From Chromatocurvus halotolerans (GTDB lineage: Bacteria > Pseudomonadota > Gammaproteobacteria > Pseudomonadales > Halieaceae), in assembly GCF_004340525.1 (NCBI RefSeq), contig NZ_SLWX01000009.1, positions 1 through 64,000 on the forward strand: a stretch of 64,000 bases of DNA. The letters run 5' to 3'. How positions within the stretch are numbered: the stretch's first letter is position 1; each line of letters starts with the position of its first letter. Positions 16,728 to 19,345 of this stretch are shown one piece after another. Below the pieces are notes generated by a model, which was not told where the DNA came from, did not search any database, and worked only from the letters and a program-made list of their open reading frames with translations. The translations under genes were made by a program, and so were the position numbers.

Positions 16728-17387
16728 GTGATCTCCTTCGAGCGGGTCAGCAAGCGCTACGACAACGGTCACGACGCGCTGCGTGAAGTGTCCTTTGACG
16801 TCAATCGCGACGAGCTGGTGTTTCTCACCGGACACTCCGGTGCCGGCAAGAGCACGCTGCTGCGCCTCATCATGCTTATGGAGCAGCCGACGCGGGGTCG
16901 GGTCGTGGTCAACGGCAACGATCTGTCGCGCATTGGCCGCCGCGGTGTGCCGGCACACCGGCGCGGTATCGGTGTGGTGTTCCAGAATCACCGGCTGCTG
17001 TTTGATCGCCCGGTGTTCGATAATGTCGCGCTGCCGCTCACGATTGCCGGCTACGACGATCGCGAGGTCGGGCGCCGGGTGCGTGCGGCGCTGGACAAGG
17101 TCGGCCTGCTGGATCACGAGCGCGCCATGCCGGTCACGCTGTCCGGCGGCGAGCAACAGCGGGTGGGCATCGCCCGGGCGGTCGTCGGCCGGCCACCGGT
17201 ATTGCTGGCGGACGAACCCACCGGCAACCTGGACCCGGCGCTGTCGGCGGAAATCATGCAGTTGTTCGCCGACTTTGCCCGCGTCGGTCTCACGGTGCTG
17301 ATTGCCAGCCACGACCTGTCCCTGATCTCCCGCCTGCGGCATCGCATTGTCACCTTGCGCGAGGGCAGGCTTGTGGGTACTCACTAA
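16728..17387 (+). CDS. ftsE: Cell division ATP-binding protein FtsE
   Basis: A 219-residue ABC ATPase that works with FtsX at the division site to control septal peptidoglycan hydrolases. Walker A is GHSGAGKST (35-43), the signature LSGGEQQR is near residue 137, and Walker B is LLADEPTGNLD. The start is GTG (VISFERVSKRYDNG) 5 bases after ftsY. ftsX follows immediately. Confidence 0.96.
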   Translation: MISFERVSKRYDNGHDALREVSFDVNRDELVFLTGHSGAGKSTLLRLIMLMEQPTRGRVVVNGNDLSRIGRRGVPAHRRGIGVVFQNHRLLFDRPVFDNVALPLTIAGYDDREVGRRVRAALDKVGLLDHERAMPVTLSGGEQQRVGIARAVVGRPPVLLADEPTGNLDPALSAEIMQLFADFARVGLTVLIASHDLSLISRLRHRIVTLREGRLVGTH

Positions 17388-17388
17388 C

Positions 17389-18366
17389 GTGCCTCGTGCG
17401 AAAAAACGGCCTCCCGAAGGTGCGCGTGTTGCGCGCCGCGGTGTCGTTACCCGCTATCGGGCCTGGGTGCGGCATCACCGTGCATCCGCCGCAGACTCCC
17501 TGCTGAAGATACTCGATCATCCCGTGTCCAGCATGCTGACCTGGCTGGTCGTCGGCATCGCCATGGCCCTCCCGGTCAGCCTGATGCTGACCCTGGATAA
17601 TCTTCGTGGCCTCGAGGGTAGTGTGGCGGATGAGGCGAGCCTCTCGCTGTTTCTCGCGGAGTCGGTCGATACTGCCGCCGCCCGCGCGCTGGCGCAGACC
17701 ATCAGCGAGCGGGATGACGTGGCCGGCGTGCGCTACCATTCGCGTGACAAGGCGCTGGAAGAATTTCGGGAACAGTCGGGTTTTGCCGACATTATCGACG
17801 GTCTTGGGAGCAATCCCCTGCCGCACCTGCTTCTGGTTACCCCCCGGGACCGGACGTCCGTGGCGGCGAGCGAAGATCTCGCTGCAGCGCTGTCGGGACT
17901 GCCAGCGGTGGCGGAGGTGGTCGTGGATAGTGCGTGGCTGCGGCGACTGCAGGGGCTGCTCGCCGTGGGCGAACGTATTGTGTTGACGCTGGCGCTGCTG
18001 CTGAGCATGGGGGTGGTGCTGATCCTCGGCAATACCATTCGCCTCGCGATAGAAAATCGCCGTGAGGAGATCCGGGTGGTCCGGCTGGTTGGCGGCAGCA
18101 ACGCCTTCGTGCGCCGACCTTTTCTTTATACCGGGTTGTGGTACGGCGTTGGCGGCGGTGTCGCCGCCGCGATGCTCACTGCACTGGGGCTCTGGTCGCT
18201 GGGCGGGCCGGTATCGGCACTGGCCGCCGCCTATGATGCCGAGTGGAGCCTCAGCGGGCTCGGAATTGTCGGCAGCTGCCAGCTGGTGCTTGCAGGTGGC
18301 GTGCTGGGGCTTGTCGGCGCCTGGGTCGCTGTGTCCCGACACCTGCGGGCGGTCGAGCCGGCATGA
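17389..18366 (+). CDS. ftsX: Cell division protein FtsX
   Basis: About 325 residues from the GTG at 17389, which follows the ftsE stop by one base. An alternative start at 17347 would overlap ftsE. There are four predicted membrane helices (one after a basic cytoplasmic N-terminus, three near the C-terminus) and a large periplasmic loop (about residues 65-205) that engages hydrolase activators in homologues. NRREEIRVVRLVGGSNAFVRRPFLYTG is the conserved FtsX cytoplasmic loop. Confidence 0.93.
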   Translation: MPRAKKRPPEGARVARRGVVTRYRAWVRHHRASAADSLLKILDHPVSSMLTWLVVGIAMALPVSLMLTLDNLRGLEGSVADEASLSLFLAESVDTAAARALAQTISERDDVAGVRYHSRDKALEEFREQSGFADIIDGLGSNPLPHLLLVTPRDRTSVAASEDLAAALSGLPAVAEVVVDSAWLRRLQGLLAVGERIVLTLALLLSMGVVLILGNTIRLAIENRREEIRVVRLVGGSNAFVRRPFLYTGLWYGVGGGVAAAMLTALGLWSLGGPVSALAAAYDAEWSLSGLGIVGSCQLVLAGGVLGLVGAWVAVSRHLRAVEPA

Positions 18367-18420: not shown

Positions 18421-18447
18421 GGAACTTTCCGGGTGTTAGCACTCTAA
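18421..18447 (+). promoter_or_regulatory. Sigma-E-like promoter of rpoH
   Basis: GGAACTT at 18421-18427 matches the -35 box of RpoE promoters. TCTAA at 18443-18447, after a 15-base spacer, resembles the -10 box. E. coli rpoH also has a sigma-E promoter, so the assignment is biologically sensible. The -10 box lies inside the CIRCE operator. Identified by eye. Confidence 0.6.
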
Positions 18448-18462
18448 TGGCTGGAGTGCTAA
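18436..18462. promoter_or_regulatory. CIRCE operator (HrcA-binding inverted repeat) in front of rpoH
   Basis: TTAGCACTC (18436-18444), a 9-base spacer and GAGTGCTAA (18454-18462) form a perfect copy of the CIRCE consensus bound by the heat-shock repressor HrcA. It covers the -10 box and likely start point of the sigma-E-like promoter and ends 28 bases before the rpoH start codon. hrcA itself is not in the window. Confidence 0.9.
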
Positions 18463-18490
18463 ACTTGGCTCCGCTGTGGAGGGGACAACC

Positions 18491-19345
18491 ATGACAATGA
18501 CCATTCAGCCGATAGATCAGCTGGTACCGGGAGCCAACCTGGCGGCCTACGTGCAGGCCATCGGGCGTATACCCATACTCACCGTCGATCGTGAGCAGGA
18601 GCTGGCACGGCAGCTGTACTTTGACAACGACGTGCAGGCCGCCCGCGAACTCGTGATGTCGCACCTGCGTTTCGTTGTGCACATCGCCCGCAGCTACCGC
18701 GGTTATGGCCTGGCCGAGGCCGACCTCATTCAGGAGGGCAATGTCGGCCTGATGAAGGCGGTGAAGCGCTTCAACCCGGACAAGGGTGTGCGGCTGGTGT
18801 CCTTCGCGGTGCACTGGATAAAGGCAGAGATTCACGAATTCATCCTGCGCAACTGGCGCATCGTCAAGGTGGCAACCACCAAGGCACAGCGCAAGCTGTT
18901 CTTCAACCTGCGCAGCGCCAAAAAGGGTCTGGCGTGGCTGAGTGCCGACGAGGCGCAGGCGGTCGCCGCGGATCTCGGTGTCAACGTACAGGAAGTGCAG
19001 CGCATGGAGGGTCGCCTGAGCAACCGCGATCTGGCGTTTGATGCGCCTGCGGACAGCGACGATGATAATGTCTGGCAGTCGCCGCAGTACTACCTGGAAG
19101 ATCATTCCGGTGATCCGGCGCAGGCGGTCGAGTCCGAGAACTGGCAGCAAAGCAGTGAAGACGGCCTGTATCTCGCGCTGGAAGAGCTCGACGCGCGTAG
19201 TCGTGACATTCTGGCCCGCCGCTGGCTCGCGGAAAACAAGGCCACGCTGCATGAGCTGGCAGCCGAGTATGGCGTATCTGCAGAGCGGATTCGCCAGCTT
19301 GAACAGGCAGCGATGAAAAAGCTGCGCGCCACTATCGCCGCCTGA
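18491..19345 (+). CDS. rpoH: Heat-shock RNA polymerase sigma factor RpoH (sigma-32)
   Basis: 284 residues, identical in length to E. coli RpoH. Region 2 contains SHLRFVVHIARSYRGYGLAEADLIQEGNVGLMKAV. The RpoH box QRKLFFNLR, specific to this sigma group, is at about 133-141. Region 4 ends YGVSAERIRQLEQAAMKKLRATI. The ATG at 18491 is placed by GGAGGGG at 18478-18484; a GTG at 18476 falls before that site. It is preceded by a sigma-E-like promoter overlapped by a CIRCE operator. It follows ftsX, the conserved order. Confidence 0.97.
   Translation: MTMTIQPIDQLVPGANLAAYVQAIGRIPILTVDREQELARQLYFDNDVQAARELVMSHLRFVVHIARSYRGYGLAEADLIQEGNVGLMKAVKRFNPDKGVRLVSFAVHWIKAEIHEFILRNWRIVKVATTKAQRKLFFNLRSAKKGLAWLSADEAQAVAADLGVNVQEVQRMEGRLSNRDLAFDAPADSDDDNVWQSPQYYLEDHSGDPAQAVESENWQQSSEDGLYLALEELDARSRDILARRWLAENKATLHELAAEYGVSAERIRQLEQAAMKKLRATIAA

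Follow-up and report, generated by a model that had tools for sequence, protein, structure and literature searches.

Introduction

The inverted repeat CIRCE and its repressor HrcA are best known from the groESL and hrcA-grpE-dnaK operons of Bacillus subtilis and many other bacteria, and the operator described here is identical to theirs in sequence and spacing. In E. coli, the level of the heat-shock sigma factor sigma-32 is set mainly after transcription, and its gene, rpoH, has a sigma-E promoter, P3, and a sigma-70 promoter, P4. The parts of the literature covered by our search contained no report of CIRCE at rpoH in Gammaproteobacteria; the 2003 study of Permina and Gelfand, with CIRCE regulons in beta-, gamma- and epsilon-proteobacteria in its title, may include one.

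A precedent from elsewhere is Geobacter sulfurreducens, for which a perfect CIRCE has been predicted at position -51 of rpoH (PMC545781, Table 8), along with CIRCE sites at hrcA-grpE-dnaK-dnaJ and groESL. It is the sole rpoH entry among the rows of that table that were covered. The locus analysed here combines such an operator with a sigma-E-type promoter in front of rpoH.

Results

CIRCE and promoter elements upstream of rpoH

The window, that is, the whole 64-kb stretch of DNA under analysis, holds a single CIRCE match when up to three mismatches are allowed. This match, TTAGCACTC-N9-GAGTGCTAA at 18436-18462, has 0 mismatches, so that the exact CIRCE upstream of rpoH reported by the initial annotation is confirmed. 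Dinucleotide shuffles of the sequence gave CIRCE matches in 0 of 100 cases, and a chance origin of the repeat was accordingly rejected. The features of the region are as follows:

17380..18366, + strand: ftsX, the neighbour 5' of rpoH (TIGR00439, 320.4 bits)
18421..18427, + strand: sigma-E-type -35 box GGAACTT of the predicted rpoH promoter, equivalent of rpoH P3 (from sequence and the register of GAAC)
18436..18462, no strand: CIRCE, predicted HrcA operator, TTAGCACTC-TAATGGCTG-GAGTGCTAA (from the exact match and conservation)
18443..18447, + strand: sigma-E-type -10 box TCTAA (from sequence; third spacer base A conserved)
18457..18465, + strand: extended -10 TGC-TAAACT of a putative second promoter; the right arm and the next three bases supply it (AT/CT conserved)
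18479..18484, + strand: likely rpoH ribosome-binding site GAGGGG (from sequence)
18491..19345, + strand: rpoH, heat-shock sigma factor sigma-32 (TIGR02392, 398.8 bits, cut-off 323.1)

Sigma-E promoters have the consensus GGAACTT at -35 and TCNNA at -10, about 15-17 bases apart, and GGAACTT-N15-TCTAA agrees with it in both boxes and in its 15-base gap. The -10 box lies within the repeat, its TC being the last bases of the CIRCE left arm and its TAA the first of the spacer. From CIRCE to the rpoH ATG at 18491 there are 28 bases (18463-18490), so the arrangement originally annotated, with CIRCE over the -10 box and 28 bases before the start codon, agrees in its coordinates. The genes before rpoH are, in order, ftsY, ftsE and ftsX, and in E. 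coli ftsX likewise lies upstream of rpoH. The predicted sigma-E-type promoter under CIRCE corresponds to P3 of the E. coli and Pseudomonas rpoH genes.

Two further candidates were considered for the region and rejected. The RNA from 18453 to 18560 folds no better than its shuffles (z -0.30), which argues against a structured leader, and a terminator scan shows no terminator-like site.

Genome context and proposed circuit

The assembly measures 3.91 Mb and is 99.99% complete. A search for hrcA and for further CIRCE sites, as proposed with the original annotation, succeeded on both counts. The genome carries a single copy of hrcA (TIGR00331, 327.3 bits; PF01628, E 2.1e-62), followed by ORFs assigned by eye to grpE and dnaK, and it has two CIRCE sites with up to three mismatches, one at rpoH and a second on another contig, 93 bases before groES. 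It also encodes sigma-E (TIGR02939, 314.5 bits, cut-off 236.15), next to which come ORFs that, by eye, look like rseA and rseB, and has one RpoH match above the TIGR02392 cut-off. CIRCE autoregulation of hrcA was rejected, as hrcA has no CIRCE of its own within three mismatches; the loose sigma-32 expression, applied to 250 bases of its upstream sequence, matched nothing.

Our reading of this arrangement, held with considerable confidence, is that the element would unite an HrcA operator with the promoters of rpoH, providing HrcA repression and a feed-forward connection with groESL; HrcA binding, repression and the start sites are predictions from the sequence. HrcA is supported by GroE (PMC6032397). 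With GroEL in surplus, HrcA would be folded, active and bound to CIRCE, and both rpoH promoters would be shut. Once GroEL is occupied by misfolded protein, HrcA would be released, and rpoH could be transcribed by sigma-E (under envelope stress) or by sigma-70. As groES in this genome has a CIRCE with a sigma-32-like site behind it, HrcA would act on groESL by two routes, blocking it directly and blocking, via rpoH, its activator sigma-32. This would amount to a coherent feed-forward loop in which GroEL provides the feedback signal.

In each of the nine groES regions read (L002, L235-L242) from the 12 genomes that sample the host family, the sigma-32-like site (CTTGAA...CCCCA type) starts six bases beyond CIRCE; outside the family, the loose sigma-32 expression matched at 4 of 28 groES sites. 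For the link between the two heat-shock systems, which the initial annotation worded as 'in series', a feed-forward loop is the better description because groES has its own CIRCE and sigma-32-like site.

Conservation of the element and its register

By RpoH, the nearest named relatives belong to Halioglobus, Haliea and Parahaliea, so that the DNA probably comes from a member of the Halieaceae. A CIRCE-like repeat with at most five mismatches lies no more than 300 bases before the match in 13 of 80 named loci, and 12 of these 13 have at most one mismatch. All ten loci from Haliea, Parahaliea, Halioglobus, Luminiphilus and Halieaceae are among those with at most one mismatch, and GAAC is in place, by eye, in eight of the ten. 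At two loci, L049 and L067 (Luminiphilus and Halieaceae CPC75), CIRCE is kept and the -35 GAAC is absent.

The wider survey covered 293 genomes of the host order. CIRCE with at most two mismatches occurs somewhere in 90 of them, and the rpoH upstream regions were read in these 90 only. An rpoH match was present in 89 of the 90, giving 91 regions, since G220 and G240 carry two copies. CIRCE (at most three mismatches, within 400 bases) was found upstream of rpoH in 82 genomes from 20 families, which bears out the conservation in related species that had been proposed as a check. With hrcA present and the repeat conserved, two of the grounds for refutation named in the initial annotation fall away. 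CIRCE sites at groES served as the control: 37 were read, and 36 have groES nearby (L234 has none).

The two sets of sites differ strongly in what surrounds the repeat. GAAC starts 13-16 bases before CIRCE at 76/82 rpoH sites and at 0/36 groES sites; the third spacer base is A at 73/82 against 5/36; and the second and third bases after CIRCE are AT or CT at 81/82 against 2/36. These positions are thus frequent at the rpoH CIRCE and rare at the groES CIRCE, and we take the predicted sigma-E -35 and -10 boxes to be coupled in register with the former and not with the latter. Both halves of the original claim, a CIRCE at rpoH and a sigma-E-like promoter overlapping it, are supported in register by these comparisons.

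Two RpoH matches per genome were seen in G220, G240, G003 and G103; in G240, one rpoH copy has a CIRCE-like repeat (two mismatches) and the other copy has none.

The conserved bases after the repeat draw attention to the right arm. Together with the next three bases it takes the general form TGCTAA, any base, A or C, T, which in the window is TGC-TAAACT, and the TTAGCA of the CIRCE left arm lies 18 bases upstream of it. The extended -10 consensus of sigma-70 is TGN-TAnnnT, accompanied by a fair -35 match. A strict sigma-70 scan of the region did not call TGC-TAAACT; the conserved AT or CT nevertheless suggests a second, housekeeping promoter at rpoH, absent from the initial annotation and perhaps the counterpart of P4. 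In Pseudomonas aeruginosa, AlgU drives rpoH P3, and RpoD drives P1 and P4 (PMC13104619).

One could go further and suppose that CIRCE/HrcA control is real but that the promoter is the housekeeping extended -10 only, the sigma-E match being due to chance or of minor importance. The AT or CT after the right arm is indeed better conserved than GAAC (81/82 against 76/82), and GAAC is missing from six of the 82 rpoH sites, of which four belong to a single family; in family f40, G039, G179 and G200 have a perfect CIRCE without GAAC in place. Against this reading, GAAC lies 14 bases from CIRCE at 37 rpoH sites and 15 bases at another 37, no other distance occurring more than twice. The conserved A at the third spacer base, which a -10 box of the form TCNNA needs, also speaks against it, and E. 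coli too has GAACTT-N16-TCTGA upstream of rpoH. We consider the housekeeping-only promoter unlikely and retain the fusion of an HrcA operator with both promoters.

In the locus readings from family f40 (L159, L160, L167), CIRCE is near rpoH and GAAC is absent from its usual place.

The composite in the class and phylum

A search with the composite pattern GAAC-N9..13-CIRCE was positive in 138 of 369 Gammaproteobacteria genomes, the columns for the reversed control pattern being 0; as this pattern requires GAAC, the frequency of GAAC with CIRCE is measured by the order set only. In the 80 of the 138 positive genomes that were checked, 76 of 82 sites, representing 70 families, lie 61-230 bases before an RpoH match. 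The other six, which were not assigned to rpoH, are the second in G600, the first in G621, and those in G377, G384, G363 and G627; G384 has no rpoH match at the cut-off, and in G363 rpoH is on another contig. AT or CT occupies the second and third bases after the right arm at 45 of 50 class composite sites read, at least one of which (L274) is not at rpoH.

In a sample of the phylum, the composite occurs in 6 of 249 genomes, with only G737 lying outside the class and showing an unusual lead of 17 bases. The predicted rpoH-CIRCE composite is thus common in Gammaproteobacteria. The initial annotation had called HrcA control of rpoH far less common than CIRCE at groESL and dnaK; CIRCE at rpoH is not rare, however, given the 138 genomes, and had been predicted before in Geobacter sulfurreducens (PMC545781).

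Composites away from rpoH were seen at L274 (G621:C4:83733) and at G600:C1:2501284; each of these two genomes has a further composite at rpoH.

Co-occurrence with hrcA and loci without CIRCE

Across the order, CIRCE is present at rpoH in 69 of 75 hrcA-positive genomes against 13 of 218 hrcA-negative ones (no match at E <= 1e-15), a comparison uncorrected for kinship; Fisher values for this comparison, and those for the rpoH and groES sites, likewise take no account of it. Six hrcA-positive genomes lack it; three of them (G022, G062, G186) have no rpoH match at the cut-off, which leaves G105, G157 and G220 as exceptions. The 13 genomes with CIRCE at rpoH and no hrcA at E <= 1e-15 are G002, G016, G087, G091, G141, G145, G195, G215, G235, G240, G247, G249 and G286. 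With the HrcA protein of the window's genome as query (E <= 0.001), nothing was found in 12 of the 13, the positive control G040 being found; in G286 the query hit a fragment of HrcA at the edge of a contig. Assembly gaps may account for some of the 13; completeness is 99% for G249, 97% for G141 and 96% for G016, G215 and G240. CIRCE carries on average 0.54 mismatches in the 13, as against 0.41 in the remaining 69 genomes.

AGTGCT lies no more than 120 bases before the match in 27 of the 67 named loci that lack CIRCE, most of the 27 being Pseudomonas and hence not independent; in control windows of 120 bases it occurs in 40 of 1178. At 19 of the 67 loci it stands 33 bases from GAAC. These AGTGCT motifs resemble either a right arm retained in a promoter role once the left arm had been lost, or a promoter that predates CIRCE.

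At Pseudomonas-type loci such as L047, L096 and L104, AGTGCT lies at about the offset of the CIRCE right arm from GAAC, at most about 45 bases before the match, and CIRCE is absent.

Such loci, in Pseudomonas and other named lineages, raise the question of whether the repeat is retained mainly as promoter elements, with HrcA control weak, lost or exerted by another repressor. The 13 genomes that keep CIRCE without a detected intact hrcA point the same way, the repeat being perfect in eight of them. However, the presence of CIRCE at rpoH follows that of hrcA, groES carries this motif as well, both in the window's genome and in the control genomes, and the left-arm TTAGCA is kept though it lies outside the sigma-E boxes, even if a role as a weak -35 for the putative second promoter is conceivable. 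Promoter use as the main reason for retention is accordingly judged quite improbable. That the inverted repeat works as RNA, as a stem-loop in ftsX transcripts or a terminator, would suit its place between ftsX and rpoH, all in the same direction, but is scarcely credible, since arm sequence and spacer length equal CIRCE exactly and a transcript from the sigma-E promoter would presumably lack the left arm.

For the HrcA operator fused to rpoH promoters, an ancestral role can be considered. Control of rpoH in the ancestor of Gammaproteobacteria might have been an interlocked sigma-E/sigma-70/HrcA promoter, P3 and P4 of E. coli and Pseudomonas being remnants after loss of hrcA and the left arm; we are evenly divided on this proposal. 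If it is true, the textbook heat-shock circuit would be a derived state without its chaperonin-sensing repressor.

Discussion

The element is real and conserved, with a function predicted from its sequence, and represents a variation on known operator use for which we claim no priority. From the elements at rpoH, here and in many relatives, it appears that two heat-shock systems generally regarded as separate are wired together. If HrcA gates rpoH across much of Gammaproteobacteria, repressor-based and sigma-based heat-shock control would be one circuit with GroEL as its signal, and models based on E. coli would miss a transcriptional arm. A single operator would then hold, in its two arms, promoter elements for two sigma factors.

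The E. coli rpoH region shows no CIRCE by eye, and the control genomes with an hrcA match do not include E. coli; its P3, also downstream of ftsX, has a spacer of 16 bases as against 15 here. Geobacter sulfurreducens is a delta-proteobacterium, and the part of the source covered mentions no sigma-E promoter under its rpoH CIRCE (PMC545781). In the window's genome, hrcA lacks the CIRCE that is found at the classical hrcA-grpE-dnaK operon. Of the 36 groES sites read, many have their CIRCE after a TTGACT...TATGA-like promoter. Here, in contrast to these classical operons, the same operator stands at a sigma factor gene and covers the -10 box of a sigma-E-type promoter.
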